Shown: piece after piece, positions 1,821 to 61,266 of the stretch | How positions within the stretch are numbered: the first letter of the stretch is position 1 | How the letters are laid out: the number at the start of each line of letters is the position of its first letter | Assembly: GCF_004293625.1 (NCBI RefSeq) | Contig: NZ_CP033040.1 | Span: 1,674,001-1,738,000, forward strand | Reading direction: 5' to 3' | DNA length: 64,000 nt | Source: Thiomicrorhabdus indica | Lineage (GTDB): Bacteria > Pseudomonadota > Gammaproteobacteria > Thiomicrospirales > Thiomicrospiraceae | The notes under the pieces: model-generated | What the model saw: the letters and a program-made list of their open reading frames with translations, nothing else | What the model was told of the DNA's origin: nothing | Database searches by the model: none | Position numbers and translations under genes: made by a program

Positions 1821-2459
1821 TTAAAGCTTAATGCTCTGCAAAGACTTTTTAATGAGCGTTTCAAGGTTATCATTCGGATCAAATACCGCCTCAACCATTT
1901 TCAGGGCTTGCGACTCTTTATAACCTAAGGAAACTAATGCGGATACTGCATTGTTTTTAATACCAATTTGCGGTGCAGGTTTTACAGACGAAGATTCACC
2001 GGCCGGTTGCGTTAAACTGAAATCATCGGTTTGGTAATCAATCTGCTGTGAGTCAATTAATGGCTTTAAGCGATCTCGCATTTCAATTTGCAAGCGCTCG
2101 GCTGTTTTTTTGCCGACACCTGGAATTTTGGTTAAAGCCACAATATCTGCCTGATCTACCTTCTGGCAAAATTCATGAACACTCATGGTCGATAAAATCG
2201 CCAGTGCCATTTTGGCACCAATTCCATTTACCTTAATCAAGGTTTTGAAAAGCGTTTTTTCGGATTCTGTTGCAAAACCAAACAATTGCATCGCATCTTC
2301 ACGTACATGCATATGCGTTAAAATTACCACCTCATGCCCGAGTTCCAATGAATAGAACGTCGACATAGGTGCTTCCACTTCATAACCAACACCGGCCACA
2401 TCAATAAACATCAATGGAGGGGTTTTCTTAACCAATTTACCGCGTAGAAATCCAATCAT
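1821..2459 (-). CDS. ruvA: RuvA, Holliday junction-binding subunit
   Basis: Tetrameric protein that holds the four-way junction and loads RuvB. At 212 residues it shows the N-terminal OB-fold start (MIGFLRG), two helix-hairpin-helix motifs (VNGIGAKMA and [12 protein letters not shown]) and a C-terminal RuvB-contact domain ([12 protein letters not shown]). The acidic linker between domains II and III carries a copy of ACCGGCCGGT read as Pro-Ala-Gly. It is flanked by ruvC (39 bases upstream) and ruvB (31 bases downstream). Confidence 0.97.
1998..2007. repeat. ACCGGCCGGT palindrome, in ruvA
   Basis: Exact copy, read as Pro-Ala-Gly in the flexible linker of RuvA. Confidence 0.95.
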
Positions 2460-2498
2460 AATTTCAAGTTATACCTTAAAACGTCAAAAACGAATATT

Positions 2499-3017
2499 TT
2501 AAAACTTCGAGCCTTTTGATACCTTTTCAGCATCAATCCCCAATGACATATAACGATCATGGCACAAAGCGCAGGCCAAAGCATCAGCAGCATCTTCTTG
2601 CGGACTATCGGTAAGCTTTAAAAGATTTTGCACCATATACTGCACTTGGTCCTTTCCTGCGTGACCTTTGCCAACTATCGTACTTTTAATTTGGGTAGGC
2701 GTGTATTCCATAATCGGTACATCATGCATGGCCGCAGCACACAAGATAACGCCACGAGCCTGCCCAAGAGTGATAGCAGATTTGGGATTTTTATACACAA
2801 AGACTTTTTCTACAGCCATAACATCAGGTTGATATTGTTCAATCAACTGACAAATCGATAGATAAATATTTTTGAGGCGTTGCGCGCCAGACAACTTTTC
2901 GACACGGATTACACCACTTACAAGATATGAGGGGTTATAGCGTCCTGATTCGACAATACCAAAACCAGTTTTACGAGAACCGGGGTCAATCCCTAAGACA
3001 CGACGCGGCTTTTTCAA
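2499..3017 (-). CDS. ruvC: RuvC, Holliday junction resolvase
   Basis: Dimeric endonuclease that cuts junctions positioned by RuvAB. The four acidic catalytic residues of the family are present: D11 (GIDPGSRKTGFG), E70 (AVEKVFV), and D142 and D145 (EDAADALA). Length of 172 is typical. The start is a TTG at 3017; no ATG is available ahead of the essential GIDPG strand, so the rare start is needed. The gene begins only 8 bases after the nadA stop, suggesting translational coupling. Confidence 0.96.
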   Translation of the reverse strand: MKKPRRVLGIDPGSRKTGFGIVESGRYNPSYLVSGVIRVEKLSGAQRLKNIYLSICQLIEQYQPDVMAVEKVFVYKNPKSAITLGQARGVILCAAAMHDVPIMEYTPTQIKSTIVGKGHAGKDQVQYMVQNLLKLTDSPQEDAADALACALCHDRYMSLGIDAEKVSKGSKF

Positions 3018-3025
3018 ATCAAAGC

Positions 3026-4108
3026 CTAGGACTGTTTCGGAGCAATTAGCCCCGCTTGACGTGAAAAATCTAACATTCGCTCAAGGGAAACTAAGGCTTT
3101 AGTTCGAATGGTATTATCCACTAAAACTTCCGGCGCTTGATTTTTTAGACAATCTCGGAGATTTTGAAGGCTATTCATCGCCATCCAAGGACAATGTGCA
3201 CAACTTTTACATGTCGCTCCATGGCCCCCTGTTGGCGCAACAATCAATGTTTTATTCGGAGCCAACTGCTGCATTTTATAAAAAATATTGTAGTCAGTTG
3301 CCACAATAAATTTTTCATAAGGCATGGTTTGAACCGCATTCAGCAAAACCTTAGTCGAGCCTACAACATCAGCCTGAGATACAACAGAAGCCGGAGACTC
3401 CGGATGAATTAAAAGCTTGGCTTCAGGATGTTTTTGACGTAACTCTTCAAGCTCAAAACTTTTGAATTCATCATGCACAATACAATGCCCTTGCCAGCGA
3501 ATCATTTCAATACCGGTTTCTTTTTCAATCCAATCACCTAAATGGCGATCTGGTGCCCAAATAATTTTTTCGCCCTGCTCTTTTAAGTAAGTGACTATTT
3601 GCAAAGCATTTCCGGAAGTCACAACCCAATCAGCTACCGCTTTAACCTCAGCACTGGTATTTGCATAAACCACCACCTTGTGTTCAGGGTATTGTGCACA
3701 GAACTCTGCAAACTCATCTGCGGGACAACCGATATCCAACGAACACGTTGCCTCAAGGTCGGGCATTAGAACCGTTTTCTCAGGAGAGAAGATCTTGGCA
3801 GTCTCTCCCATAAAACGAACACCACAGACGACCAGAACATCTGCATCCGATTGCGCACCGAAATTTGCCATTTCAAGTGAATCAGCGACCACACCACCGG
3901 TTTCTTCTGCCAAAGCTTGTAACTCGTCATCGACATAATAATGCGCTACTAACTGTGCATTACTCGCCTTAAGAAGCTGTTTAATCTCAGCTTTAAGTGC
4001 CTGTTTTTGCTGATCATTCAACCAAGGTTGAGTCGGCGCATCACTCGCAAGCTGCTGAATGCGTGACTCAAGTTGTACGGGAATGTTCTGTGCCTGTGAA
4101 ACTGTCAT
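3026..4108 (-). CDS. nadA: NadA, quinolinate synthase
   Basis: Condenses iminoaspartate with dihydroxyacetone phosphate to quinolinate in de novo NAD synthesis, using an oxygen-sensitive [4Fe-4S] cluster. The protein shows the family signatures [18 protein letters not shown] and [15 protein letters not shown], and the Cys-rich C-terminal [13 protein letters not shown] that supplies a cluster ligand. I take the ATG at 4108; a TTG six bases upstream is also in frame. It sits between aspS and ruvC, where yebC is commonly found, with only a few bases to either neighbour. The cotranscription with aspartyl-tRNA synthetase is curious but may be chance. Confidence 0.96.
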
Positions 4109-4120
4109 AGTCAACCGAAA

Positions 4121-5908: not shown

Positions 5909-5957
5909 AACTAAAGCCTTTGTTAAATTATTTTTGTTAATTATTAAATACTTTTCT

Positions 5958-5967
5958 ACCGGCCGGT
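5958..5967. repeat. ACCGGCCGGT palindrome, intergenic (DUF502/aspS)
   Basis: Exact copy in the 90-base gap upstream of aspS, about 50 bases from its start. Confidence 0.95.
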
Positions 5968-5998
5968 TCCATCTTTACCTGAATCCAACCGATTAAAT

Positions 5999-6640: not shown

Positions 6641-6746
6641 TCGCCCGTCGAAAATATTTGAGCATTATAGAGGAATTCGCTTTTTAAATAAAAACAAACC
6701 GACCTTTAAAAGCAAATTTATTAAGTGGAGAAAATCGAAAGAAAAT

Positions 6747-6756
6747 ACCGGCCGGT
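6747..6756. repeat. ACCGGCCGGT palindrome, intergenic (CBS gene/DUF502)
   Basis: Exact copy in the gap between the CBS-domain gene stop and the DUF502 gene start on the same strand. Confidence 0.95.
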
Positions 6757-6804
6757 TATATTCTTATTGGCAGCCTTAAAAAAACAAAAGTCAAAAAGGA
6801 GAAT

Positions 6805-7575: not shown

Positions 7576-8475
7576 ATGGAAGCCCTAAAACTCTACCAAG
7601 CTAAAATTGAACTCTTTCTTGATGATGCACTTCAAAACTTGCCAGCCAATCCTATAAACTTGCAAGAAGCCATTCGCTACTCAACGCTAAATCAAGGTAA
7701 GCGAATTCGCCCCGCAATGCTTTTAGCCATCGGTGAAATTTTTGAAATTGAAGAAAATAAACTTTCTGCACCGGCTTGTGCATTAGAACTGATTCACTGC
7801 TATTCATTAGTACATGACGATTTACCGGCAATGGACGATGATAACTTACGTCGAGGAAAACCGACTTGTCATATTGCGTTTAACGAAGCAACCGCTATTT
7901 TAGTCGGCGATGCCCAACAAACTCTAGCTTTTGAAATTCTGGCTACCGAGAACAAAATCTCAGCAGAACATCGAATTGAAATGATTCAAATTCTGTCAAA
8001 ATCCGCCGGCGTGAATGGCATGGTGGCCGGACAACAAATTGACTTAAACTCTGAAAATACCGAAGCGCCTATTTCATTAGACGAACTGAAAACTCTACAC
8101 CGACTCAAAACTGGGGCCTTAATTAAAGCAGCATTTTTACTGGGAGCTTGTCAAAGCACAAAATTTGAACAATACCGGCCGGTTCTGGAAAATTTAGGCG
8201 AAAGCATTGGATTGGCATTTCAAGTGCAAGACGACATTATCGATATTGAATCCGACACACAGACACTTGGAAAAACTCAAGGCAAAGATGAAGCGGCCAA
8301 TAAATCCACTTTTCCAAAATTACTCGGTTTAGAAGCGGCTAAAGGTTATCGAGACTCACTTATTGAACAAGCAAAAAACGCCTTAAAAAGCCTGCCAAAC
8401 AACTCTAAAACTGGAAAAAATACACACCGATTCTTGGAACAACTCATCGAATTTATTGCCCAAAGAAACCACTAA
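7576..8475 (+). CDS. ispA: IspA, farnesyl diphosphate synthase (short-chain prenyltransferase)
   Basis: Condenses IPP with DMAPP and GPP to farnesyl diphosphate for quinone, undecaprenyl and other isoprenoids. The first aspartate-rich motif, DDLPAMDDD, has the DDxxxxD spacing of bacterial FPP synthases. The second is QDDIID. GKRIRP near the N-terminus binds IPP. Length of 299 is typical. A palindrome copy is read as Arg-Pro-Val. xseB and dxs, common neighbours, are absent here. Geranyl-type specificity is not excluded. Confidence 0.93.
   Translation: MEALKLYQAKIELFLDDALQNLPANPINLQEAIRYSTLNQGKRIRPAMLLAIGEIFEIEENKLSAPACALELIHCYSLVHDDLPAMDDDNLRRGKPTCHIAFNEATAILVGDAQQTLAFEILATENKISAEHRIEMIQILSKSAGVNGMVAGQQIDLNSENTEAPISLDELKTLHRLKTGALIKAAFLLGACQSTKFEQYRPVLENLGESIGLAFQVQDDIIDIESDTQTLGKTQGKDEAANKSTFPKLLGLEAAKGYRDSLIEQAKNALKSLPNNSKTGKNTHRFLEQLIEFIAQRNH
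8174..8183. repeat. ACCGGCCGGT palindrome, in ispA
   Basis: Exact copy, read as Arg-Pro-Val (QYRPVLEN). Confidence 0.95.
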
Positions 8476-8954: not shown

Positions 8955-8963
8955 AACAAAAAA

Positions 8964-9097: not shown

Positions 9098-9997
9098 TTG
9101 TTCACACACACCCAAATTCCTTTTTTCGAATTAAACTTACCTCAAATTATTGTATTTGGTAGTTTGTTTGGCTTAATTATTGGCAGCTTTATTTCAATGC
9201 TAAGCTGGCGATTACCTCGCTTATTAATGGCTCAATATACGCATGATATTGCACAAGAAACCGGAAATTCGGTCAGTGAAAATTCACCGGCCGGTAACGA
9301 ATCCAACACTATTGACTACAACCCAGAACAATCAATTCTCAGCCAACTAAGTGTTGGTGGCTCGAAATGCCCCCACTGCAAAACACGTTTAAAGTGGTAT
9401 CAACTGTTTCCATTATTTAGCTGGCTTTTCTCTCGCGGGAAATGCTTGCACTGTAAACACCCCATCTCCACCCGCTATCCTCTTATTGAATTATTTACAG
9501 CCGTTTCAACGGTTGTCATTTTGTGGCAATTTGAACTGTCTCCAATTGGAATTGCTGCATTAATTTTTAACTACACATTAATTACGATTAGTGTGATTGA
9601 CTTTGAACACCACTTAATCTTGGATGTCATCAATTACCCTTTTTTGTGGTTAGGTCTGCTAATAAACACGCAAGGCTGGTTTGCCTCACTGGAAGAAGCT
9701 GTTTGGGGGGCTGCAATCGGTTATCTATTGCTTTGGCTGGTGTTCCACGGTTTTAAATTCATAACTGGAAAAGAAGGCATGGGGTTTGGCGATTTTAAAA
9801 TGCTAGCAGCACTCGGCGCTTGGTTTGGTGCTTTAGCACTTGCACAAATTATACTGATTGCAGCCGTAGCAAGCATCCTAGCCGGAGTCATTGGAACCTT
9901 ACTCAAACGACACTCATACGAGCAACCTCTTGCATTCGGCCCTTTTCTTGCCATTGGTGGTTGGTGTACGCTTTTCTTTGGAGCAAGTTTGTTTTAA
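9098..9997 (+). CDS. pilD: PilD, type IV prepilin leader peptidase / N-methyltransferase
   Basis: Integral-membrane aspartyl protease (A24 family) that cleaves and N-methylates prepilins and pseudopilins. The N-terminal GSFISMLSWRLP is followed by a long soluble loop with the paired zinc motifs CPHC and CLHC. The two catalytic aspartates are in IDFEHHLILD and GFGDFK. About eight hydrophobic segments are visible. The start appears to be a TTG at 9098, seven bases after AAGGAC. pilB and pilC, usual neighbours, are not here. The cytosolic loop contains a palindrome copy (Pro-Ala-Gly) that the domain does not need. Confidence 0.95.
   Translation: MFTHTQIPFFELNLPQIIVFGSLFGLIIGSFISMLSWRLPRLLMAQYTHDIAQETGNSVSENSPAGNESNTIDYNPEQSILSQLSVGGSKCPHCKTRLKWYQLFPLFSWLFSRGKCLHCKHPISTRYPLIELFTAVSTVVILWQFELSPIGIAALIFNYTLITISVIDFEHHLILDVINYPFLWLGLLINTQGWFASLEEAVWGAAIGYLLLWLVFHGFKFITGKEGMGFGDFKMLAALGAWFGALALAQIILIAAVASILAGVIGTLLKRHSYEQPLAFGPFLAIGGWCTLFFGASLF
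9286..9295. repeat. ACCGGCCGGT palindrome, in pilD
   Basis: Exact copy, read as Pro-Ala-Gly in the poorly conserved cytosolic loop of PilD. Confidence 0.95.
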
Positions 9998-13041: not shown

Positions 13042-14103
13042 TTAAAAATGCTGAAAACCAAAAGTGAGATTTTCAGCATTTTGCCAATCCAAACTCTCAG
13101 TTTTGTTCTGGCCTACCAACTCTATGACCGGCCGGTTAATAATTTTTCCAATCCTAGTTACCTTAACATTTAACGCTTTTGCAAGTTCTTGCAAGGCCTG
13201 CCAATTAGTTTCCGAAACAGTCAGACACAACTGATAATCATCTCCACCACTCAACGCTAAGCCCCAATCCTTTGTCTGCGAAAAATAAGCTTTCATACCT
13301 TCTGATACCGGCACCTCTTGCAGATTAATTTTAGCGCCCAATCCTTTTTGCATCTGATTTTCAGCGGATATTGCGACACTATGATTACCAAAACTGGATT
13401 GCCTTAAAATATGAGTCAAATCCTGTAAAAGACCATCTGAAATATCAATTGCACTGTTCACAATACCAGACAGCATTTGCCCAACAGCTGTTTGTGGAAC
13501 AGGAGTATTCAAGGCCTTTAGTGCATGTAGTTTAAGTGCTTTGGGCATGCTACACACCTCTGGCTTATCAAGGTCTACCTGAAGACCTAAAGCCCCTTCA
13601 CCTAAATTTCCAGTGACAACAATCCAATCATTTACACATGCACCTCGACGATAAACTGCTTTTCCTTGTTTCACTAAACCTTGCGCACTGATAGTAACAC
13701 TCAAAGCCCCTTCTTTCGCTGAAGTGGTATCTCCTCCTACTAAAGGAATTTTTAAATTTAAATGCGCACATAAATCAGCTAACCCCTTGGAAAAATCAGC
13801 AAACCATTGCTGTTTCGCTAAGGATTTCGGAACACTTAAACTTAACGAATAGCACCATGGTTTCGCCCCCATTGCGGCTAAGTCACTTAAATTCACAGCC
13901 AAAGCTTTCCAAGCAACTTGCTGTGCAGGTGTTTTTTCTGGAAAGTGAATTCCCTGTACTAGAGTATCTGTTGCTACAACGACTTGATGTTCAACTGGAA
14001 CACTCAATACAGCAGCATCATCACCAATCCCTAAATCACCGGCCGGTAACTCTCGGCAAAGACCTACAAAGCAATTTTGAATGATATTAAATTCGGAAGA
14101 CAT
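13042..14103 (-). CDS. thiL: ThiL, thiamine-monophosphate kinase
   Basis: Phosphorylates thiamine monophosphate to the active diphosphate. Recognised by LGIGDDAAVL, ATDTLVQGIHFP, the NLSDLAAMGAKPW motif, VGGDTTSA, DISDGL and LSGGDDYQL. The usual family length is about 325; here it is 353. Two palindrome copies lie inside it (near the N-terminus as Pro-Ala-Gly, near the C-terminus as Arg-Pro-Val). It follows nusB, as in many gammaproteobacteria, but a terminator-like hairpin separates them. Its own 3' end forms a terminator-like stem. Confidence 0.95.
   Translation of the reverse strand: MSSEFNIIQNCFVGLCRELPAGDLGIGDDAAVLSVPVEHQVVVATDTLVQGIHFPEKTPAQQVAWKALAVNLSDLAAMGAKPWCYSLSLSVPKSLAKQQWFADFSKGLADLCAHLNLKIPLVGGDTTSAKEGALSVTISAQGLVKQGKAVYRRGACVNDWIVVTGNLGEGALGLQVDLDKPEVCSMPKALKLHALKALNTPVPQTAVGQMLSGIVNSAIDISDGLLQDLTHILRQSSFGNHSVAISAENQMQKGLGAKINLQEVPVSEGMKAYFSQTKDWGLALSGGDDYQLCLTVSETNWQALQELAKALNVKVTRIGKIINRPVIELVGQNKTESLDWQNAENLTFGFQHF
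13046..13083. terminator. Bidirectional terminator hairpin overlapping the thiL 3' end
   Basis: AAAATGCTGAAAA pairs with TTTTCAGCATTTT across a 12-base loop (13-bp perfect stem). It starts 2 bases beyond the thiL stop and lies mostly inside the last codons of thiL. T-runs are built into both arms, so it can stop both aroG and thiL transcripts. Confidence 0.8.
13127..13136. repeat. ACCGGCCGGT palindrome, in thiL (3' part)
   Basis: Exact copy, read as Arg-Pro-Val (INRPVIEL). Confidence 0.95.
14038..14047. repeat. ACCGGCCGGT palindrome, in thiL (5' part)
   Basis: Exact copy, read as Pro-Ala-Gly (ELPAGDLG). Confidence 0.95.
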
Positions 14104-17096: not shown

Positions 17097-18263
17097 TTAA
17101 TTGTTCATCTGTTTTGGCATCAATATCCAACGAATATCATTACCAAACATTTCACACGATTCTGGAACCAGCTCAACTTTATCATTCATAGTCTGTAATT
17201 CCGGTAACTCAAACATAGCCCGCGATTTAGAACCGAGAAGACAAGGCGCCATGTATAGATGATATTCATTCACTAAATTCTGCGCAATTAACCGGCCGGT
17301 AAGTTTTGCACCTGCTTCAACCATAATGCTTTGAATCCCAAAATCAGAAAATAGCGTCTGCATCAGACATTTCAAATCAATACCTTCTTGATCTGCCGGT
17401 AAACCAAGCACCTGTATCTTCTGCGTACTGAGCAATTCGACTTTTTCAGGATTATTTTTTAATGACTCACCTGAACATATTAATAAATTTTTGCCAGGCA
17501 TTTGCAATATTTTTGCTTGCGGTGAGATTTTTAGGTGCGTATCCAGAACGATCCGCAATGGATAACAATGACTTGTATCTTCTGGCAACCCAAGATGAGC
17601 GCTTTGAAGATCTTGTTCAGACAACCGTACGGTTAAACTAGGATCATCAGCCATAACTGTGCCAATCCCCGTCAAAATCGCCTGAGATTGCAAACGTAGC
17701 TTATGTACTTCTTTTCGCGCCTCTGAACCGGTAATCCATTGACTTTCACCATTTGGCATCGCTGTTCGACCATCAACGCTAGACGCCATTTTAAGACGAA
17801 CATACGGCTTCTTGTGACGCATCGCAAATAAAAAGCTTGGGTTCAATTTTTCTGCCTGAGCTTTTAAAACACCGACCGTCACCTCAATGCCTGCGGCTTG
17901 CAATATTTTCACCCCTTTCCCTGCAACTAATGGGTTTGGGTCATGCATGCCAATCACGCAACGCTGAATCTTCGAATCGACTAAGCGATTAGCACAGGGA
18001 GGCGTTCGACCATAATGCGAACAAGGCTCAAGAGTTACATAGGCCGTGGCTCCTTCTACCTCATTTCCGCGCTGCTTTGCATCCGCTATAGCCAAAGGTT
18101 CTGCATGAGGTAGACCGGCTTTGTGGTGCCAACCTTCACCAATTACGGTGCCATTTTTGACTAAAACACAACCAACCATTGGATTTGGTTTAGTGGAATA
18201 CAGGCCTTTTTTCGCCAATTCAATGGCCATCTGCATAAAGTATTCGTCACTGGCTATCTGCAC
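17097..18263 (-). CDS. ribD: RibD, bifunctional deaminase/reductase of riboflavin synthesis
   Basis: The N-terminal cytidine-deaminase-like domain has HAEPLAIADAK and the zinc motif PCSHYGRTPPC. The C-terminal domain is the NADPH reductase (VRLKMASSVDGRTA, QAILTGIGTVMADDPSLTVR, MVEAGAKLTGRLI). Together they convert the GTP cyclohydrolase II product to the ribitylaminouracil phosphate. Length of 388 is normal. A palindrome copy is read as Thr-Gly-Arg in the conserved VEAGAKLTGRLI stretch, the only copy in that frame. It follows nrdR by 12 bases. Confidence 0.97.
   Translation of the reverse strand: MQIASDEYFMQMAIELAKKGLYSTKPNPMVGCVLVKNGTVIGEGWHHKAGLPHAEPLAIADAKQRGNEVEGATAYVTLEPCSHYGRTPPCANRLVDSKIQRCVIGMHDPNPLVAGKGVKILQAAGIEVTVGVLKAQAEKLNPSFLFAMRHKKPYVRLKMASSVDGRTAMPNGESQWITGSEARKEVHKLRLQSQAILTGIGTVMADDPSLTVRLSEQDLQSAHLGLPEDTSHCYPLRIVLDTHLKISPQAKILQMPGKNLLICSGESLKNNPEKVELLSTQKIQVLGLPADQEGIDLKCLMQTLFSDFGIQSIMVEAGAKLTGRLIAQNLVNEYHLYMAPCLLGSKSRAMFELPELQTMNDKVELVPESCEMFGNDIRWILMPKQMNN
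17291..17300. repeat. ACCGGCCGGT palindrome, in ribD
   Basis: Exact copy, read as Thr-Gly-Arg (KLTGRLIA), in a conserved motif. Confidence 0.95.
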
Positions 18264-18782: not shown

Positions 18783-18827
18783 CAAAGTTTACCGCTGTCG
18801 CTATTGTTACCGGCCGGTAAACTTTTG
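18783..18827. other. Hairpin upstream of nrdR built on a palindrome copy
   Basis: AAAGTTTACCG (18784-18794) pairs with CGGTAAACTTT (18815-18825), the second arm being the right half of a palindrome copy plus its flank. No U-run follows on the minus strand, so it is not an obvious terminator. It lies in the nrdR leader or promoter. Confidence 0.55.
18809..18818. repeat. ACCGGCCGGT palindrome, intergenic (glyA/nrdR)
   Basis: Exact copy, extended to TTACCGGCCGGTAA. Confidence 0.95.
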
Positions 18828-22213: not shown

Positions 22214-22588
22214 AACTCTACTATCCCTTGCTGCAAAAGGCTTTTTTCTGCAATGCGTTGCTCATTTACTCACGTGTAAACTGCGCTACGCGTTTCGAAT
22301 AAAAGCCTTTTTCGCTGAGGCCTAGCGAGTTTCATACTTCTTTAAATAGCTAAAACTATAAACTCCGCTTTAAATCGCATTTTTTCCTCGACCTAACTCG
22401 CTTTCGGTAGTTTTAAAAACTATCATTCTAAAATTACAATGAATGTTGATATTTAACGTCATTACTACTCACTATTTTTAAACTTTACCGGCCGGTAAAG
22501 ATTTCATCCCCACCCACAGGTCAAAGTTTTGTTTGCATCTGCAAAAACCTTTTCTATAATCGAAACATCGATTTTGGGAGAGATATTC
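22214..22588. other. Structured intergenic region after ettA
   Basis: Several inverted repeats lie here: AAAAGGCTTTT (22235) with AAAAGCCTTTTT (about 22301); TCGCTGAGGCC-TAGCGA (22311-22329); TAGTTTTAAAAACTA (about 22409-22423); and an extended palindrome copy at 22483-22500. The first pair, ending in a T-run, could terminate ettA although the loop is long. No coding sequence is evident. Confidence 0.5.
22487..22496. repeat. ACCGGCCGGT palindrome, intergenic (ettA/PAS-GGDEF)
   Basis: Exact copy extended to the 18-bp perfect palindrome CTTTACCGGCCGGTAAAG (22483-22500), upstream of the PAS-GGDEF gene. Confidence 0.95.
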
Positions 22589-28396: not shown

Positions 28397-28406
28397 ACCG
28401 GCCGGT
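28397..28406. repeat. ACCGGCCGGT palindrome, intergenic (deaminase/DsrE-like)
   Basis: Exact copy, extended to TTACCGGCCGGTAA, between divergent genes about 80 bases before the DsrE-like start. Confidence 0.95.
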
Positions 28407-29507: not shown

Positions 29508-29822
29508 CTAATAGTCTGATGAGGCGTTAATCAATTCATTATTCACTAAGTTTTTAGCCACATCTTGGCTAAATTGACCGGCCGGTAAATCGTCAATCCA
29601 GTCAGGTTGCTTTTCATTGGCTTCAAAAAAGGCATAACCCACCTTTTGCTCTTCACCTAGTTTTGCCATCATAAAAACCAAACGGCGGCCGGTTGTTTTG
29701 TGTTCTAACATACATGAGCCGTTCTTAGCCAATTGAAACTCACAGACCTCGTCTAACTCCTCATGAATTAACTTTGCAACTTCTTGCAACATTAAATATA
29801 GCTCTTTGTAATTTTCTACCAT
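29508..29822 (-). CDS. Small protein of unknown function
   Basis: A 104-residue soluble, acidic protein without signal peptide or membrane segment. I do not recognise the family. It shows a plausible alpha/beta pattern: a helical N-terminus (YKELYLMLQEVAKLIHEELD), then strands around CEFQLAKNGSCMLEHK and GRRLVFMMAKLG. One exact palindrome copy (Pro-Ala-Gly) and one variant lie within its 315 bases. It is convergent with the tautomerase gene and precedes soxB's terminator on the same strand. Confidence 0.65.
   Translation of the reverse strand: MVENYKELYLMLQEVAKLIHEELDEVCEFQLAKNGSCMLEHKTTGRRLVFMMAKLGEEQKVGYAFFEANEKQPDWIDDLPAGQFSQDVAKNLVNNELINASSDY
29577..29586. repeat. ACCGGCCGGT palindrome, in the small unknown gene
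   Basis: Exact copy, read as Pro-Ala-Gly (DLPAGQFS). A variant, gcggccggtt, lies about 100 bases further on in the same gene. Confidence 0.95.
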
Positions 29823-32317: not shown

Positions 32318-35300
32318 TTAACCAACCCAACGTCTAGCATTACGGAACAAACGCATCCAAGGCGCATCCTCTTGCCACTCATCAGGATGCCAAGAGTTCT
32401 GCACCGTGCGGAAAACTCGCTCAGGGTGCGGCATCATAATGGTCACACGACCATCAGGAGTCGTCAGTCCGGTCATGCCATTAGCAGTACCATTTGGATT
32501 AAATGGATAAGTTTCGGTTGGATTACCTTGCGCATCGACATAACGAATACCAACAAGCCCTTCGACCTGAGACGCATCACCATGACCAAAATCCATACGC
32601 CCCTCGCCGTGTGCAACCGCAACTGGAATGCGCGTACCCTCCATCCCTTTTAATAGAATGGATGGAGATTCTTCAATTTGTACCTGAGAGAAACGAGCTT
32701 CAAACTGCTCTGACTCGTTTCGAACAAATGCCGGCCAGTTCTGTGCGCCTGGAATAATTTCTTTTAAGTTTGATAACATCTGGCAGCCGTTACAAACACC
32801 CAAAGTAAACGTATCTTCACGCTGGAAGAAATTCTCAAATGTTGAACGTGCATTGTCATTGAACAAAATTGAATTCGCCCAACCGCGTCCTGCTCCTAAA
32901 ACATCTCCATAAGAAAAACCACCACAAGCGACCAATCCTCGGAAATCGTCAAATCTCACTTCACCAGAAAGCACATCACTCATATGCACATCAATCGCAT
33001 CAAAACCGGCCTTAGTAAAGGCAGCAGCCATCTCTTGCTGACCATTTACACCCTGCTCTCGAAGGATTGCGACTTTTGGCCGCTGTGAATTCGCAAATTC
33101 AGCTGAAATATCCTCATTAATGTCGAATGTCACGAAAGGATTAATTTCGATATTTGTATCGTTTTCAATCGAATCAAACTCTTGTTGAGCACAGACTTCA
33201 TTGTCACGAATCGCCTGCATACGGAATGAGGTTTCAGACCACCATTGTTGCAACTGCTTACGAGGCATACTGAAAATTTCAGATCCATTCGCAGAAATGG
33301 AAATTACATCATCACCCGATACTGAACCAATAAACTGCGTCATCTCAATAAGATTGTGTTCAGCAAGAACCGCCTTTACCGCAGCTTTTTCTGATGCTTT
33401 TATTTGCAACACCACGCCAACTTCTTCCGCACAAAGAGCTGCTACAGGTTCATTACCAAGCTCAGAAATATCAACCTTAATTCCAGTATGTCCTGCAAAA
33501 GCCATTTCTGCTAAGGTCACCAACAAACCACCATCCGCACGATCATGATAAGCAAGCAGCATATCTTTAGCCATTAAACTCTGAGTAGCATTAAACAGGT
33601 TCAACAAGTCCTCAGCAGAATCCAAATCCGCAGATACATCGCCAATTTGACCATACACTTGTGCCAAACAACTGGCACCAATACGGTTTTGTCCACGACC
33701 TAAATCAATGACAACCAATTCAGTTTCACCTAAATCAGTGCGTAGCTGCGGGGTAACCGTTTTACGAACATCCGTAACCGGTGCAAAAGTCGTGATATTC
33801 AAAGACATTGGCGAAATAACGGCTTTATCTTGCCCATCATCATTCCAGACAGTCTTCATAGACATTGAGTCTTTACCTACTGGAACAGCAATCCCTAATG
33901 CTGGACAGAGCTCCATACCAACCGCTTCAACCGCATCATACAACGCTGAATCTTCACCAGGGTGACCAGCAGCTGCCATCCAGTTTGCCGAGATTTTAAT
34001 ATCCGACATTTTGTTAATTTTTGCACAGGCAATATTGGTAATCGCTTCAGCAATCGACAAACGAGCCGAAGCTTTTGGATTGATTAACGCAACGGGCGGA
34101 CGCTCACCAGATGCCATGGCTTCACCGGTATAACCATTGTAGTCAGATGCAGTAATACCAGCATTTGCTACTGGAACCTGCCAAGGACCTACCATCTGAT
34201 CCCTCGTCACCATACCAGTAATCGATCGGTCTCCGATAGTGATTAGGAAATTTTTCGACGCAATAGTCGGCAATTTCATTAATCGCTCAGCGACCTCATT
34301 TAAATCCAAGTTTGCAGTTTCAAAGCCGGCTTGAGGAATTGAACGTGTCTCAGCTGTACGGTGCATTTTAGGCGGCTTACCTAGCAACACATTAAGAGGC
34401 ATATCAACCGGATTATTTTCAAAAACCGTATCATTGACTACCAACTCTTGCTCTTTAGTCGCTTCACCGACAATGGCATAAATAGCTCGCTCACGCTCAC
34501 ATATTTCAACGAACTGATCAATTTTTTCTGGATAAACAGCAATCACATAACGTTCTTGGGATTCATTTGACCAAATCTCCATTGGCGACATACCTGGCTC
34601 ATCATTTGGAACTGAACGCAGATCAATCTTACCGCCTCGACCGGCATCGTTAACCAGCTCAGGAAAGGCATTCGAAATACCTCCAGCACCCACATCGTGA
34701 ATCGATGCAATAGGAGAATCCTCACCCAAATACGTACATCGATCAATCACCTCTTGTGCACGGCGCTCCATTTCAGGATTTTCACGCTGAACCGAAGCAA
34801 AATCTAAATTTTCAGCACCAGAACCGGTTTCAACCGAAGAGGCTGCACCACCACCTAGACCGATTAACATCGCAGGGCCACCAAGAATAACAAGTTTCGC
34901 ACCAATCGGAATATCGCCTTTTTCGATATGCATTTCACGAATCGAGCCAAGACCTCCTGCCAGCATAATTGGCTTGTGGTAACCTCGAATCTCTTCACCT
35001 TCATGCGTAATCAAGGCATTTTCATAGGTACGGAAATACCCATTAATAGCTGGACGACCAAACTCATTGTTAAACCCCGCTGCACCCAAAGGCCCTTCTA
35101 GCATAATTTCCATTGGCGTAACAATACGACCCGGTTTGCCATATGGTTTTTCCCAAGGTTGCTCAAAACCGGGGATATTCAAGTTAGAAACCGTAAAACC
35201 AGTCAGACCAGATTTCGGTTTAGAGCCACGACCGGTTGCTCCTTCATCACGAATTTCTCCTCCCGAGCCTGTCGCAGCGCCAGGCCAAGGAGAAATTGCC

Positions 35301-36187
35301 GTTGGGTGGTTATGTGTTTCCACCTTAATTTGGAAATGAACTGGTTCCTCATTAAACTTGTATTGACGTGTTTTAGGGTCAGGAAAAAAGCGGGTGGCCA
35401 TCGCCCCTTCAACTACCGCTGCATTATCGCTGTAAGCAGATAAAACACCGGCCGGTGAAGTTTGATAGGTATTACGGATCATTCCAAACAGTGATTTTTC
35501 TTTGTCTTTGCCATCAATTGTCCAATCCGCATTGAAGATTTTATGGCGACAATGCTCTGAGTTTGCCTGAGCAAACATCATTAATTCTGCATCCACTGGA
35601 TTACGGTTAAGGCCTGTAAACGCCTCAATAAGATAATCAATTTCATCATCCGATAACGCTAAGCCCATTTCTCTATTAGCGTCAACCAAAGCGGAACGCC
35701 CACCGTTTAAAATATCGACAGTGGTCATTGGTTTAGGCGACTGGTGCGAGAAAAGATTTTCAAGCTGATCAAAGTTATGACTCACTGTTTCCATCATTCG
35801 GTCATGAATCAAAGTCTCTACTGCAGTTTTATCCTCAGCTTTTACACCCTTAAAGTGATACACAATTCCACGTTCAATACGTTTTACTTTCTCAATACCA
35901 CAAGTATGAGTAATATCCGTTGCTTTTGAAGACCAAGGAGAAATCGTGCCGACACGTGGTGTCACAATACAACTATCCTCTGATAGCTCACCGGTTAGAT
36001 CATCCGACGCTTGGTTTAACAAGATATTTAAATGCGACTTTTCCAGCGCATCTAATTGATCCGTAGTTTCAACAAAATAAACAAATTGAGAAGTAACTGC
36101 ATTAATCGATACAGTTTTTTGTATTTTCTCAAGTAATTGTTGAGTACGGTAAGCGGAATGAGCAGGATTTCCCCAAATGATTTGCAT
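32318..36187 (-). CDS. purL: PurL, phosphoribosylformylglycinamidine synthase (large single-chain type)
   Basis: ATP- and glutamine-dependent amidation of FGAR to FGAM in purine synthesis. The 1289-residue single chain is the proteobacterial type. It has an N-terminal PurS-like domain, two AIRS-type halves ([39 protein letters not shown] linker; [11 protein letters not shown]) and a C-terminal class I glutaminase. The glutaminase has the nucleophile in GVCNGCQML and the His-Glu pair in MPHPERVFR. It is monocistronic. A palindrome copy is read as Pro-Ala-Gly (TSPAGVLS). Confidence 0.98.
35447..35456. repeat. ACCGGCCGGT palindrome, in purL
   Basis: Exact copy extended to CACCGGCCGGTG; read as Pro-Ala-Gly. 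Confidence 0.95.
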
Positions 36188-39188: not shown

Positions 39189-39198
39189 ACCGGCCGGT
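39189..39198. repeat. ACCGGCCGGT palindrome, intergenic (bcp/PhoH2)
   Basis: Exact copy, extended to TTACCGGCCGGTAA, 27 bases before the PIN-PhoH start codon. Confidence 0.95.
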
Positions 39199-43290: not shown

Positions 43291-44574
43291 TTAGAGAGGC
43301 TTTGATGACTTTGCCAAACTTGGGATCTCCTCTCGTCCATTCAATACCTGCGCCATTAACCAATGTTTCAAAGGCGCACTTAGTTTTGACTGGCCGGTCA
43401 AATCTATAACGGTATGACGAAAGTTTTCAAGAAGTTCCGCAGCGAAAAGCTTGTCAAAAAACTCCATCGAACGTTGCACAATGACATTGTCACCGCGTCT
43501 TTGGCGCTCATACTTGCGCAACATTGGCAAGGTTCCGATTTGTCTTCCTTGTCTGAGTGCTACGGAGACTTGATCAATCAAAGCCGCCGCATCCAAAAGA
43601 CCTATATTCACACCTTGACCTGCTTGCGGATTAATCGTGTGTGCCGCATCGCCAACCAACGCGAAACAAGGCTTCACATAGCTTCGAGCATGTCTTCGCA
43701 CTAGTGGAAATGCCGAACGCTCAGCCACATGGATAACCCGCCCTAATTCAAATCCTGACGCCTGCTCAATCTCTCGAGCAAAAGCTTTATCGTCTAACGA
43801 CAATGCCCACTGCATTTTATCTAACGGCAAATACCAAGCAATAGAGCTCACTTCTTCTGCCATGCCTAAATAAGCAAAAGGTCCATCGGGAGTATATCGT
43901 TGCCAACACGCATTCTGATGCGACTTTTCGGTTTTCACACAACCAACCACTGCACACTGCTCATAATCAAGCTGTTCAAGGCCAATACTAGCCAATTGAC
44001 GCAGCTTGGAAAATGCGCCATCCGCTCCGACAACCAGCTGTGTTGTGATCTTTCGCCCTGAATCGAGCATTAAAACGGCATCTGCCTGAAAATCTTTACC
44101 GGCCGGTAAAGTTAACGTATCAATTTTTTCAGTAAGATTAATTTTAATATTGGGCTGTTGTTCTAGCTGTTCCCACAAAGCCGCCTGCACGATAAAATTC
44201 TCTACTGTGTGGCCTAAATTCGGCTCCATAATTTCTTGAGCATGAAAAGCAAGCTTGTTTTCTGAGCCCGACTCCCATACATTCATCGCCACAAATGGCT
44301 GAAAACGACGGTTTTCAATTCCTGACCACGCGCCTAAATTTTTTAGGATATTCTCTGAACTACGAGTTAATGCACTCACTCGAACAGCAAATGGCGTCGC
44401 ATCGTCCCACACAAGCTCAGGCGCTTTTTGTTCAAACAACAACACTTTCAAACCCAGCTTCGCCAAACCTAAAGCAGTTGCAGCGCCAACCATTCCGCCT
44501 CCAACCACAACAGAGTCATAAGAATTTTCCTGATTTGAATTGAATTGATTTAACGTCGTTTTCATTGAATCCAT
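43291..44574 (-). CDS. UbiI/UbiF/VisC-type FAD-dependent ubiquinone hydroxylase
   Basis: A 427-residue flavin monooxygenase of the UbiH/Coq6 family. The FAD motifs are VVGGGMVGAATALGLAK, VGADGAFSKLR and VGDAAHTINPQAGQGVNIGL. RVSALTRSSENIL is typical of UbiI/UbiF rather than UbiH. The paralogous UbiH is encoded directly upstream (45 bases), as in the E. coli pepP-ubiH-ubiI order. Which ring position it hydroxylates cannot be settled by eye. Start at 44574 or the ATG three codons later. Confidence 0.88.
   Translation of the reverse strand: MDSMKTTLNQFNSNQENSYDSVVVGGGMVGAATALGLAKLGLKVLLFEQKAPELVWDDATPFAVRVSALTRSSENILKNLGAWSGIENRRFQPFVAMNVWESGSENKLAFHAQEIMEPNLGHTVENFIVQAALWEQLEQQPNIKINLTEKIDTLTLPAGKDFQADAVLMLDSGRKITTQLVVGADGAFSKLRQLASIGLEQLDYEQCAVVGCVKTEKSHQNACWQRYTPDGPFAYLGMAEEVSSIAWYLPLDKMQWALSLDDKAFAREIEQASGFELGRVIHVAERSAFPLVRRHARSYVKPCFALVGDAAHTINPQAGQGVNIGLLDAAALIDQVSVALRQGRQIGTLPMLRKYERQRRGDNVIVQRSMEFFDKLFAAELLENFRHTVIDLTGQSKLSAPLKHWLMAQVLNGREEIPSLAKSSKPL
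44098..44107. repeat. ACCGGCCGGT palindrome, in the UbiI-like gene
   Basis: Exact copy extended to TTTACCGGCCGGTAAA (44095-44110); read as Pro-Ala-Gly (TLPAGKDF). Confidence 0.95.
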
Positions 44575-44619: not shown

Positions 44620-45885
44620 CTAAGCTTTACCCATTGCAAAGCGGGCAAAACGTTTCTTTAAAGGCGGTAATAATTGCATTGCGGCTAAGCCTAAACCTCT
44701 CGCATGGCCAACTATAGGCGAAGGATGCTCAAAAATTTGAATCAAACCATCTGTCATACCCATCACTTTTTCGTGTTGTTTTTGCTGACGAGACGCATAA
44801 TCCGAGATCAACTCGCTTAAGATTGTCGGATTGGACAAATCTACCGGCCGGTTAAATTGATTTTCAAACCGATCCAGAGCCGCAACAAACTCAAAAACGT
44901 CTTTAATCCCCAAATTCAAACCTTGAGCCGCCACCGGGTGCTGGGTATGCGCAGCATTCCCCATCAACACAACACACCCTTCAGAAATTTGATCCAGACT
45001 GGTTTCTTTTAGCGGATAAGCCAGACGTTTTGACACCGACACAAAGCCACCGAAACGCTCACCCATTCTTTCAGAAAATGCTTGCATAAAGGCTTGATCA
45101 TCCATGTCCAAAATACGCGCCTTATCCTCGACAGAACAAACCCAAACCGCTTTATGAAAGCGCTCCGCCATCGGTAACAAGGCCATTGGGCCTTGAGGGG
45201 TAAAACGTTCAAAGGCTAATCCATGATGCACATCTCTGGTCTCAATACGGGCAAGCACTCCAAAAGCTTCATAAGACTTGGTATGTAATTCAAAACCCAG
45301 CCCTTTGCGAACTTGCGAATCGGTTCCATCTGCACCAATCAAGCAGTGAGAGCAAACTTCAATGGATAAATTAGATTCAGTCTCTTTTAAAACCGATAAA
45401 ACTGCAAACTCATTGGCGGTTTCATTAGATACATTATCCAGCTCACAAAATTGGGAAAACTGCTTAAACTCAACCGGTGATAACAATTGGATATTTTCTT
45501 GCCTCTCAGCAACTTTCCATAATTGATTACCTAAATCCCAGCCTTGAACACTATATCCAAGCGCATCTATCCCTAACTCTTCGTTCGAAATAGTCGTCAG
45601 CCCCAAATAGCCTTTTTGAGAAACATGAACTTTTTTGATGGGCGTGCTTAATGGCAACAATGAAGGCCAAATACCAAATTCTCTGAGTACATCAGCAGAA
45701 CCTTGAGAAAGTGCTAAAACTCGACCATCAAAAGCATTCTCTTGCTGCTCAATTTTATTCGGAAAATTCGGTGTAAATTGTTCAGCAACAATCACCTCGT
45801 AACCTTTACGAGATAAACCAATCGCAAGAATTAACCCGACTGGACCCGCACCAGAAATCAAAAAGTCACATGATAGGGTTTTCAT
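44620..45885 (-). CDS. ubiH: UbiH, 2-octaprenyl-6-methoxyphenol hydroxylase
   Basis: FAD monooxygenase adding a ring hydroxyl in ubiquinone synthesis. The 421-residue protein shows FLISGAGPVGLILAIGLSRK, the UbiH-type RVLALSQGSADVLREFGIWP and KKVHVSQKGYLG, LIGADGTDSQVRK, and VLMGNAAHTQHPVAAQGLNLGI. It follows pepP by 86 bases and precedes a paralogue. In aerobic sulfur oxidisers ubiquinone accepts electrons from the oxidation chain. A palindrome copy is read as Arg-Pro-Val. Confidence 0.93.
   Translation of the reverse strand: MKTLSCDFLISGAGPVGLILAIGLSRKGYEVIVAEQFTPNFPNKIEQQENAFDGRVLALSQGSADVLREFGIWPSLLPLSTPIKKVHVSQKGYLGLTTISNEELGIDALGYSVQGWDLGNQLWKVAERQENIQLLSPVEFKQFSQFCELDNVSNETANEFAVLSVLKETESNLSIEVCSHCLIGADGTDSQVRKGLGFELHTKSYEAFGVLARIETRDVHHGLAFERFTPQGPMALLPMAERFHKAVWVCSVEDKARILDMDDQAFMQAFSERMGERFGGFVSVSKRLAYPLKETSLDQISEGCVVLMGNAAHTQHPVAAQGLNLGIKDVFEFVAALDRFENQFNRPVDLSNPTILSELISDYASRQQKQHEKVMGMTDGLIQIFEHPSPIVGHARGLGLAAMQLLPPLKKRFARFAMGKA
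44843..44852. repeat. ACCGGCCGGT palindrome, in ubiH
   Basis: Exact copy, read as Arg-Pro-Val (FNRPVDLS). Confidence 0.95.
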
Positions 45886-45951: not shown

Positions 45952-45971
45952 TTTCTACCGGCCGGTAGAAA
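45952..45971. repeat. 20-bp perfect palindrome around an ACCGGCCGGT copy, at the pepP stop
   Basis: TTTCTACCGGCCGGTAGAAA is perfect over 20 bases (core 45957-45966) and directly abuts the pepP stop codon at 45972. It could fold as a hairpin in the pepP-ubiH mRNA. It is the longest extension in the window. Confidence 0.95.
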
Positions 45972-49371: not shown

Positions 49372-49381
49372 ACCGGCCGGT
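49372..49381. repeat. ACCGGCCGGT palindrome, intergenic (ygfA/amiB)
   Basis: Exact copy just before the convergent-gene hairpin. Confidence 0.95.
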
Positions 49382-51771: not shown

Positions 51772-52989
51772 ATGACTATTGAGAACAAGCCATCACTGGT
51801 AGAACAAATCAAAGAATGGGGAAAAGCACTGGGTTTTGCGGATATAGGCATAACGAATTGTGACTTATCTGCATACGAAAACGATTTCTTTCAAAAAGTA
51901 GAGAACGGATTATTTGGAGAAATGGATTACATGCATACGCATGGAACCAAGCGCACTCGGCCGGTCGAACTTGTCCCAGGAACTCAGTCGTTGATTTCAG
52001 TACGCATGAATTACTTTGACTTACACGCTGAAAATGCACTCGGCCAACTTCATCGCTCACACTCTGCCTATATTTCTCGATACGCTCTTGGCAAGGATTA
52101 TCACAAGTTACTTCGTAAGCGTTTACAACAACTCGCCAAAAAAATTCAAACAGAAGTCCCTAACCTTGAATACCGAGCTTTTACCGATAGCGCCCCTGTT
52201 TTGGAACAGTCCATCGCTCAAAAATCAGGACTTGGCTTTATTGGCAAAAATAGTTTATTGATTCATCCAAGAGCGGGTTCTTGGTTCTTTCTTGGTGAAC
52301 TGTATCTCAATATTGAACTACCTTCCGATCCACCTTTTGAAAAACAAGGATGCGGACCTTGTACCGCATGTATTCAAGAATGCCCGACGCAAGCCATCTT
52401 GGAAAATAACCAAATTGATGCCAGACGCTGCATTTCTTATCTCACCATTGAATATTCTGGAGTCATTCCCAACGAGTTTCGCCGTGCAATGGGTAACCGC
52501 ATTTATGGGTGTGATGATTGCCAACTGGTCTGCCCGTGGAATCGTTTTGCGAACCCAACCCAAGAATCTGGATTTGAATCGCAATATGCGTTGGACAATG
52601 CAAATTTAATTGACTTGTGGGCTTGGGATGAAAGCACATTTTTAAAACATTTTGAAGGCTCTGCCATTCGTCGAATTGGCTTCGAAAAATGGCGTAGAAA
52701 CCTCGCCATAGCGCTTGGAAATATAGAGAATGCTGCATACCAAAAAGAGGCTCTGAAACTGCTTCAAAACGGCCAAGATGAAACCGAGTTGGTTCAAGTT
52801 CATATTGATTGGGCTATTGAAAGTTTACAAAAAAACATAAACAACAAAACAGACGAACTTTTGACAAAACTCTCACGAAAATCGTTACCGGCCGGTAAGG
52901 TTTTGAATGCCCATGCCACGCAAACCATTCGCCCTTTTGTTGCCAAAAAATATTACTATCCAGCAGACAAAATTAAAACTCGACATTAA
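51772..52989 (+). CDS. queG: QueG, epoxyqueuosine reductase
   Basis: Cobalamin- and iron-sulfur-dependent enzyme completing queuosine in tRNA. The 405 residues include AFTDSAPVLEQSIAQKSGLGFIGKN and two ferredoxin-like clusters (CGPCTACIQECPTQAI and CDDCQLVCPW). A C-terminal HEAT-like part (FLKHFEGSAIRRIGFEKWRRN) follows. It depends on B12, whose uptake and synthesis genes lie at the right end of this window. A palindrome copy near the C-terminus is Pro-Ala-Gly. Confidence 0.96.
   Translation: MTIENKPSLVEQIKEWGKALGFADIGITNCDLSAYENDFFQKVENGLFGEMDYMHTHGTKRTRPVELVPGTQSLISVRMNYFDLHAENALGQLHRSHSAYISRYALGKDYHKLLRKRLQQLAKKIQTEVPNLEYRAFTDSAPVLEQSIAQKSGLGFIGKNSLLIHPRAGSWFFLGELYLNIELPSDPPFEKQGCGPCTACIQECPTQAILENNQIDARRCISYLTIEYSGVIPNEFRRAMGNRIYGCDDCQLVCPWNRFANPTQESGFESQYALDNANLIDLWAWDESTFLKHFEGSAIRRIGFEKWRRNLAIALGNIENAAYQKEALKLLQNGQDETELVQVHIDWAIESLQKNINNKTDELLTKLSRKSLPAGKVLNAHATQTIRPFVAKKYYYPADKIKTRH
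52887..52896. repeat. ACCGGCCGGT palindrome, in queG
   Basis: Exact copy extended to TTACCGGCCGGTAA; read as Pro-Ala-Gly (SLPAGKVL). Confidence 0.95.
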
Positions 52990-57565: not shown

Positions 57566-57639
57566 AAAGCTGAACGGAGCATATTCAAACAACTCTTGAT
57601 TATCAATCAATGACCATTCAGTTAGGTACTGAATATTTC

Positions 57640-57649
57640 ACCGGCCGGT
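57640..57649. repeat. ACCGGCCGGT palindrome, in the asmA-family terminator
   Basis: Exact copy; its right part is an arm of the terminator at 57643-57668. Confidence 0.95.
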
Positions 57650-57677
57650 AAAGTTTTCTTTATCGGCCTTTTGTTTT
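57643..57677 (+). terminator. Terminator of the AsmA-family gene, built on a palindrome copy
   Basis: GGCCGGTAAA (57643-57652) pairs with TTTATCGGCC (57659-57668), one G-U pair, 6-base loop, then TTTTGTTTTT. The left arm is part of an ACCGGCCGGT copy. Confidence 0.88.
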
Positions 57678-57791
57678 TCGGATTACCCTCAAATTTCTTT
57701 AGCCAAACTGTCATGACTTTGCCAACCTTGCTGGTGCAATACTCGCTATAATATTTCTTTGAATTTTTCTCAGACAGAACTCGCTGGCTTT

Positions 57792-58322: not shown

Positions 58323-58367
58323 TAATCTATCACTAAAGACACGTTTTCGTGCTTCCTTTTGACTTCG

Positions 58368-58377
58368 ACCGGCCGGT
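58368..58377. repeat. ACCGGCCGGT palindrome, intergenic (DUF2062/proS)
   Basis: Exact copy between the DUF2062 gene and proS, outside any obvious terminator. Confidence 0.95.
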
Positions 58378-58508
58378 GCCATTCAATTCGATTGAATTTC
58401 ATTGACCGGTTGACACTTATTTCGCACCAAAGTACCCCTGTTTGCTAAAATACGCCAATTCCGTAAATTGATCTTCGTAATACTTCCTAATGGAGACCCA
58501 AAGCCAAT

Positions 58509-60224: not shown

Positions 60225-60273
60225 AGTAATCTTTAACCACAGTTTTTACTGTTTTTACTGTTTTTTAAACGTT

Positions 60274-60283
60274 ACCGGCCGGT
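60274..60283. repeat. ACCGGCCGGT palindrome, in the proS terminator
   Basis: Exact copy; its last four bases begin the stem of the proS terminator. Confidence 0.95.
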
Positions 60284-60311
60284 TTATTGATAACCAATAA
60301 GCCGGTTTTTT
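60279..60311 (+). terminator. proS terminator, built on a palindrome copy
   Basis: CCGGTTTATTG (60279-60289) pairs with CAATAAGCCGG (60295-60305) with one G-U pair and a 5-base loop, then TTTTTT. The left arm starts within an ACCGGCCGGT copy, and the second arm supplies its own CCGG. Confidence 0.9.
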
Positions 60312-60417
60312 ATTTCTAAAATATAATTACTCTTATAGCTTTTAAATTAGCTCGTTAAGAAAAATATAATATCGACTCTGTCTAACAGGGTTTGACGACC
60401 TTTGAGAACTATCCTAG

Positions 60418-61248
60418 ATGAAAGAAGATAAACTTCGCCGAGCATTTGAATCCATAAAAGGAATCCGTATTCCGGAGTTACCGGGGGAAATTATCGAACT
60501 CGAGCATGAGCTCAGTCGAAAACTGTGTAATTCTTTTACTGTGGCTCAAATCATCGAACGCAATGCAACCTTATCGGGTGAAGTAATTCGCTTAGCGAAC
60601 TCACCGATGATGCGGCTGCGAGAACCTGCTGGCACCATCCGAGACGCAATCAACGTCATTGGGTTAGATAATATCTATAACCTTGTTGTTTCAGCCGCAT
60701 ATCAACGAATTTTTGGCAGTGACCGGCTCTATAAAGATATCTTAACGCACAGTGTTGATGTCGGGTTTGTGATGGCATACTTATCTGAATGGGTTCAAGG
60801 CGTATCTCGTGACGAAGCTTATATGGTCGGACTATTCCATAATATTGGGAGTTTGATGTATGCGAATAAAAATCCAGAAGTCTACAGTAAACTGTTTATT
60901 AATAGCATGAGCTTTCCAGTCCGTATTATTGAAAAAGAAGAAGAGATAATGGGAGCAAATCACTGTATGGTGGGGATTCTCGTAGCTAAAAAATGGTCCT
61001 TACCCATGGACGTGCTGAACACCATTATGTTGCACCATACACCTAAGGTCTCAGTCATCCAAGACGATCGTGTAAGAGCTTTGGTCGCTATGATTAAGGT
61101 TGCAAACGCGGTCGTAGCCGAAGTTTCTCTAGGGGCTTATCGAGGCCAAGAAATGAAAGATTATGAAAAAGATGGCATGAATGAACTTATGATTGACTAC
61201 GATGTCATTAAAGAACTTCGCAATCGGTTAATGACCGATCAAAAATAA
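60418..61248 (+). CDS. HDOD-domain protein
   Basis: A 276-residue cytoplasmic protein. The HDOD domain spans about 15-215: IPELPGEIIELEHELSRKL, ATLSGEVIRLANSPMMRL, RDAINVIGLDNIYNLVVSAA and the histidine-containing YMVGLFHNIGSLM. The usual HD metal pair is replaced by HN, as in other HDOD proteins that act as signalling scaffolds. No GGDEF or EAL partner is attached. It converges on the YjfB-like gene. Confidence 0.9.
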   Translation: MKEDKLRRAFESIKGIRIPELPGEIIELEHELSRKLCNSFTVAQIIERNATLSGEVIRLANSPMMRLREPAGTIRDAINVIGLDNIYNLVVSAAYQRIFGSDRLYKDILTHSVDVGFVMAYLSEWVQGVSRDEAYMVGLFHNIGSLMYANKNPEVYSKLFINSMSFPVRIIEKEEEIMGANHCMVGILVAKKWSLPMDVLNTIMLHHTPKVSVIQDDRVRALVAMIKVANAVVAEVSLGAYRGQEMKDYEKDGMNELMIDYDVIKELRNRLMTDQK

Positions 61249-61252
61249 TTTC

Positions 61253-61266
61253 TGACCGGCCGGTCA
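61253..61266. repeat. ACCGGCCGGT palindrome, intergenic (HDOD/YjfB)
   Basis: The core 61255-61264 extends to the 14-bp palindrome TGACCGGCCGGTCA between convergent genes. Confidence 0.95.

Follow-up and report, generated by a model that had tools for sequence, protein, structure and literature searches.

A highly iterated palindrome in Thiomicrorhabdus indica and differently spelled counterparts in its relatives: a possible DNA-uptake tag

The window considered here is the whole stretch of 64,000 nucleotides (G000:C1:1674001-1738000) that was analysed from the single 2,829,883-base contig of Thiomicrorhabdus indica (genome G000, 2.83 Mb), a member of a sulfur-oxidising genus. Its genes include soxB, purL, a queG-like gene and proS, and within and between them recurs the palindrome ACCGGCCGGT, which is the subject of this report (Table 1). 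All 23 exact copies listed in the original prediction were found at their places, and the four near matches that it named (18511, 29094, 55268 and 55534) are all among the 31 matches in the window with at most one mismatch, for which the shuffle mean is 0.57. No exact copy was seen in 100 dinucleotide shuffles, and the expectation from a second-order Markov model built on the window is 0.04; the chance figure put forward earlier was about 0.02. With open reading frames (ORFs) of at least 150 aa as a proxy for genes, 10 of the 23 copies lie inside and 13 outside, the copy at 29577 being placed outside by this criterion, and the twelve intergenic copies first reported were therefore about right.

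The motif is iterated across the entire genome, which bears out its description as a highly iterated palindrome: 1,025 exact copies are present, compared with 0.6-1.7 expected from order 1-3 Markov models computed after masking the motif and a single copy of the reversed control. The near-expectation genome-wide count that the original prediction named as its refutation is thus not what the genome shows. When one mismatch is allowed the matches number 1,310 (control 51), and therefore the majority of copies are exact. Samples of 20 kb were counted at 20 places in this genome and hold 5-11 copies each, and the motif accordingly shares with uptake sequences the trait of hundreds to thousands of exact copies distributed chromosome-wide. 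A separate observation in a sample of the same genome was that GATC is far below expectation (1832 observed vs 3096 expected). Among the papers listed in our literature search, none dealt with the ACCGGCCGGT palindrome or with uptake sequences of these bacteria.

An alignment of 295 T. indica sites revealed that the conserved element is larger than the core, taking the form of a 24-bp dyad, AAWnTTT-ACCGGCCGGT-AAAnWTT, with AT-rich edges on both sides. Information reaches 7 bases out on either side and is near background from position 8, and the scores of the left and right flanks are hardly correlated (0.10). Three relatives whose core differs, being of the ACCAGG kind (G019, G016 and G022), have their A-rich edge equally far from the centre, with single-base frequencies in these flanks of about 40-60% only. 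In one further relative (G021) the flank is found on one side only (n=11 sites), and therefore the dyad is usual but perhaps not obligatory. We also noted 8 pairs of motifs at most 60 bp apart in 400 kb of T. indica DNA; such pairs can form stem-loops, and at least one of them (1201168) has a T run after it in the manner of a terminator.

The comparison set comprised 32 Thiomicrorhabdus genomes (T. indica and 31 others) and 5 genomes of other genera of the family. Exact copies of ACCGGCCGGT number 0-15 in the 31 other genus genomes, 0-4 in the 5 family genomes and 0-20 in 21 genomes of the class. The iterated palindrome is thus at background in relatives as far as the T. indica spelling is concerned; what the window alone could not reveal is that 16 of the 31 carry a GGCC-centred motif in another spelling, ACCAGGCCTGGT, AACAGGCCTGTT, AGCAGGCCTGCT or the lopsided AACAGGCCGGGT, which brings the genomes with any spelling to 17 of 32. 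In k-mer counts of 40-kb samples, ACCAGGCCTGGT is iterated in G015, G022, G030, G009 and G016. In descending order, whole-genome counts of ACCAGGCCTGG on the forward strand are those of G019 (780), G030 (637), G016 (553), G022 (533), G015 (495), G009 (489), G007 (439), G027 (365), G010 (209) and G006 (92), with none in T. indica. The spelling is AACAGGCCTG(TT), partly mixed with AGCAGG, in G005, G018 and G025, AGCAGGCCTG(CT) in G008 and AACAGGCCGGGT in G021, and G002 has CAGGCCTG/ACAGGCCTG with 6 copies each within 14 kb. No spelling was seen in samples of 11-40 kb from 14 of the 32 genomes (G014, G026, G031, G020, G013, G024, G003, G011, G017, G028, G012, G023, G029 and G001), in which ACCAGGCCTGG has at most 3 copies per strand genome-wide; G004 was counted neither as motif-bearing nor as motif-less. 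Among the other genera of the family, 40 kb each of G033, G035 and G036 showed the ACCAGGCCTGG type, and the 10-12 kb sampled from G032 and G034 showed no motif. Beyond the family there is background only: in a sample of 369 genomes of the class, AVCAGGCCTGBT has 512 matches in G035, itself a member of the family, and none of the 365 genomes from other families has more than 10.

The spellings follow descent, as do the dialects of uptake sequences within a family. On a proS tree the five spellings require 6 label changes, compared with a mean of 12.8 when labels are shuffled (6 unlabelled rows not counted). The same tree places T. indica as sister to five motif-less species (100/99), one of which (G011) is on a long branch. 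In our inference, ACCAGGCCTGGT is the family's ancestral spelling, that of T. indica being derived. Two of the motif-less sisters (G013 and G024) contain 15 exact copies each of ACCGGCCGGT vs 3-6 expected from models of order 2-3, and two others (G020 and G026) have counts below expectation; relics of the T. indica spelling in these sisters are suggestive only. Runs of at least 7 C/G were independently noted to be over-represented in the motif-less genomes G017 (L096), G023 (L258, L265), G028 (L097) and G029 (L263), and are possibly phase-variable tracts.

To describe placement, 464 kb of T. indica DNA was surveyed with a home-made gene caller. Of 172 copies, 79 are intergenic and 93 coding, and intergenic sequence makes up about 22% of the bases, not the tenth that had been estimated for the window. 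For 69 of the intergenic copies a gene was called to the left and to the right; here tandem gaps (42 in 43.9 kb), divergent gaps (16 in 17.3 kb) and convergent gaps (11 in 13.5 kb) have similar densities. The coding copies favor one frame, 68 of the 93 reading nnA-CCG-GCC-GGT, which encodes xPAG. The copies are also spread evenly, their counts being under-dispersed in bins of 10 kb (variance/mean 0.675, p 0.005) and 20 kb (0.601, p 0.012).

Coding sites were compared with relatives at the protein level, which replaced a nucleotide-level version that covered 14 sites only. A relative's protein could be aligned at 33 of 211 coding-like sites, some of the alignments being of low identity (33-50%). 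Across the motif 51 of the 79 protein alignments are gap-free, and at least one gap-free relative is available at 23 of the 33 sites; in purL all five relatives are gap-free. This corresponds to the origin of copies by substitution rather than insertion that typifies uptake sequences. By eye, most coding sites fall in variable stretches, and two lie on a conserved PAG, one at position 5019 of the stretch L227 (6 of 6 relatives) and one in G027.

Table 1. Exact ACCGGCCGGT matches (listed without strand) in the window, with ORFs of at least 150 aa as gene proxy, and one further feature
Feature	Position	Strand	Context
Motif copy	1998..2007		within ORF 1821-2459 (-), frame xPAG
Motif copy	5958..5967		not in an ORF ≥150 aa
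Motif copy	6747..6756		not in an ORF ≥150 aa
Motif copy	8174..8183		within ORF 7576-8475 (+)
Motif copy	9286..9295		within ORF 9098-9997 (+); residues gapped in 4/4 aligned relatives
Motif copy	13127..13136		within ORF 13042-14103 (-)
Motif copy	14038..14047		within ORF 13042-14103 (-); gap-free in 4/5 aligned relatives
Motif copy	17291..17300		within ORF 17097-18263 (-)
Motif copy	18809..18818		not in an ORF ≥150 aa
Motif copy	22487..22496		not in an ORF ≥150 aa
Motif copy	28397..28406		between divergent ORFs
Motif copy	29577..29586		not in an ORF ≥150 aa
Motif copy	35447..35456		within purL (32318-36187, -); 5/5 relatives gap-free, with PEG or PQG vs PAG here
Motif copy	39189..39198		not in an ORF ≥150 aa
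Motif copy	44098..44107		within ORF 43291-44574 (-); 5/5 aligned relatives gapped
Motif copy	44843..44852		within ORF 44620-45885 (-); 4/5 aligned relatives gapped
Motif copy	45957..45966		not in an ORF ≥150 aa
Motif copy	49372..49381		not in an ORF ≥150 aa
Motif copy	52887..52896		within queG-like ORF 51772-52989 (+)
Motif copy	57640..57649		not in an ORF ≥150 aa
Motif copy	58368..58377		upstream of proS; relatives' own spellings at about the same place in 6/20 (G015, G022, G030, G016, G008, partly G010)
Motif copy	60274..60283		directly downstream of proS; relatives' own spellings there in 6/20 (G016, G019, G018, G025, G021, G010)
Motif copy	61255..61264		not in an ORF ≥150 aa
Cobalamin riboswitch	61627..61890	+	upstream of BtuB-like TonB-dependent receptor ORF 62050-63849 (match below curated cut-off)

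In the features examined the motif appears to work like an uptake sequence, and among the roles listed in the original prediction an uptake signal fits best. We give about even odds (roughly 0.5) that it is a genome-wide, palindromic DNA-uptake (self-recognition) tag with dialects, in a third family. The fuller form of this proposal is put forward a little more tentatively; it envisages a third independent uptake-sequence system, in the Thiomicrorhabdus family, with two-sided palindromic tags, a putative receptor that would act in either orientation or as a dimer, five or more spellings, one of them lopsided, and about a thousand tags re-spelled in T. indica. A natural-transformation receptor would bind the 24-bp dyad and thereby confer a preference for DNA of the cell's own dialect. 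Copies would then build up because tagged fragments are more often taken up and recombined; point mutation together with biased recombination would add them wherever they are tolerated, up to the stage where almost all 10-kb pieces hold a tag, and drift of receptor specificity between lineages would give rise to the dialects around the GGCC core. The receptor, the preference and the drive are what we propose, and the receptor is probably a type IV minor pilin, since that of the Pasteurellaceae uptake signal sequence (USS) is predicted to be one (PMC12616744). Competence machinery was gauged by ComEC alone, which is present in 28 of the 32 genus genomes, including T. indica, where its frame is open. 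Prepilin-type matches number 10 in T. indica and 7-14 in 6 relatives, and one cluster of them (L244) includes the G and J proteins of a type II secretion system. Judged by eye, G000:C1:1860001-1870000 (L228) appears to hold a type IV pilus or secretion cluster with two ATPases, a platform protein and prepilin-like proteins; a PAG-containing peptide lies near the start of both ATPase ORFs.

Sequence-specific uptake is named for two families in the sources consulted, the Pasteurellaceae (PMC1626085, 2006) and the Neisseriaceae (PMC5031613, 2016). The DNA uptake sequence (DUS) of the latter, read by the pilin ComP, resembles the present motif in copy number (hundreds to thousands), in having dialects along phylogenetic lines, in its permissive placement between genes and in inverted pairs that act as terminators (PMC3630211, PMC5031613). 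The nearest precedent for a palindromic tag is Simonsiella muelleri, with 1,294 overlapping DUS that form dyads and for which Frye et al. suggested dimer-based recognition (PMC3630211). Unlike the DUS, the motif described here belongs to another family, has another core and AT-rich flanks, is a dyad as a rule, and has a receptor that is only putative. The USS is similar in combining a core of 9-10 bp with AT-rich flanking segments, in originating by substitution and in having more than one spelling in its family (PMC1626085), but it is non-palindromic and flanked on the 3' side only, whereas the flanks here lie on both sides, G021 excepted.

Several observations weigh against an uptake tag. 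Described uptake sequences are not palindromes, and a symmetric 24-bp dyad would equally suit a dimeric chromosome protein. ComEC does not track the motif, being present in 16 of the 17 genomes that bear it and in 12 of the 14 without it, and no receptor candidate that tracks the motif emerged from the prepilin-type matches in 7 genomes, a signature scan of 18 stretches or Pfam searches of 8 T. indica prepilin-type proteins. Our literature search found nothing on transformation in Thiomicrorhabdus. Gaps of varied lengths occur in 28 of the 79 protein alignments (35%), compared with 24% given for the Haemophilus influenzae USS (PMC1626085). Conservation at orthologous positions is seen in part near proS, where 6 of 20 relatives carry another spelling on the upstream side and 6 of 20 on the downstream side, and is modest overall: co-occurrence between dialects at orthologous gaps is weak (8/26 vs 10/87), with p 0.024 on rows that are non-independent and p 0.07 by distinct gap. 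Evenness is seen in 2 of 6 bin sizes, the other four giving p 0.05-0.21, and the coefficient of variation of spacing among the first 100 sites is 1.12, which is not below random. Reading the long motif-free gaps as foreign DNA gave a mixed result: a 17-kb gap (G000:C1:24352-41330, L203) is a surface-polysaccharide cluster (WbsX, RgpF, Wzt-type ABC transporter) and that at 173-189 kb has MauG/MbnP-like genes, vs ordinary genes at 1210-1225 kb and the core genes ftsH and nuo at 1100-1113 kb, the latter weighing against an uptake tag.

The strongest rival, because an evenly spread 24-bp dyad would suit a dimer, is a putative protein of chromosome organisation, replication or recombination for which sites would be required at intervals of a few kb. 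The two-sided dyad, its AT-rich edges at equal distance in other spellings, and the even spread at 10-20 kb, with copies in every 20-kb stretch sampled, all speak for it. We nevertheless regard it as rather unlikely, since a change in specificity would require about a thousand sites to be re-spelled, the 14 genus genomes in whose samples no such motif was seen would do without it, and one dialect is lopsided on the 11 sites available. A role as transcription terminators or as regulatory sites, or an origin as a miniature mobile element, would be in keeping with intergenic enrichment, the terminator-like close pair or the gapped alignments. The density is similar in convergent, tandem and divergent gaps, more than half of the surveyed copies are in genes, gap lengths are varied and do not correspond to one unit, and nothing is conserved past the dyad, which together make this explanation most improbable.

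Two DNA modifications remain to be weighed against an uptake tag. A palindrome built by DNA methylation and mismatch repair, as proposed for the highly iterated palindromes (HIP1 and alternate HIPs) of cyanobacteria, would have the same style, with many copies and other palindromes replacing it in some lineages; moreover, the motif contains two overlapping rCCGGy sites, one of the targets named for alternate HIPs (Elhai 2015, PMC4390886), and 10 of the 16 motif-bearing relatives match at least one of three methylase families. Elhai ties alternate HIPs to cognate methyltransferases, with which HIPs are generally paired (PMC4390886), but PF00145, PF01555 and PF02086 have no match in T. indica (other methylase families being outside the search) or in the motif-bearing G015, G022, G027, G018, G025 and G010. 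The methylase option of the original prediction was rejected for this lack of a match to the three families in T. indica. In addition, in a sample of the T. indica genome CCGG outside the motif is near expectation (1513 observed/1403 expected) and GGCC below it (1415 vs 1879), and random gain through repair bias alone would not predict even spacing. We hence consider such an origin improbable, if less so than the terminator or mobile-element explanation. Least probable of all is a target site of phosphorothioation (Dnd), even though GGCC is one known Dnd core (PMC12193691) and T. indica carries a locus (G000:C1:2034056-2041926; L266 4056-11926) with dndB, dndC, dndD, a dndE-like gene whose match scores under the NCBIfam cut-off, and a 136-aa ORF resembling the C-terminal end of DndH. 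DndC occurs in 2 of the 32 genus genomes vs spellings in 17, and its loop, GYPAPTRSFRW, is as in Escherichia coli B7A with target GAAC/GTTC: by the rule in PMC12193691, Thr-Arg-Ser is of the GAAC/GTTC type and GGCC would go with Arg-x-Lys/Arg. The 8.3 kb of the locus that was surveyed has no motif copy, which is only mildly unusual given the motif density. A Dnd origin was rejected on the loop type and the lack of DndC in most dialect species.

If the motif is an uptake tag, it would be a third case of an uptake sequence, in sulfur oxidisers, and would make it possible to test how these systems originate and whether change begins with the receptor or with the tag. It would likewise permit a test of whether biased uptake predicts even spacing, with the dialects serving as natural crosses. 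If it is instead the site of a chromosome protein, about a thousand sites would have been re-spelled between related species, which would be equally surprising.

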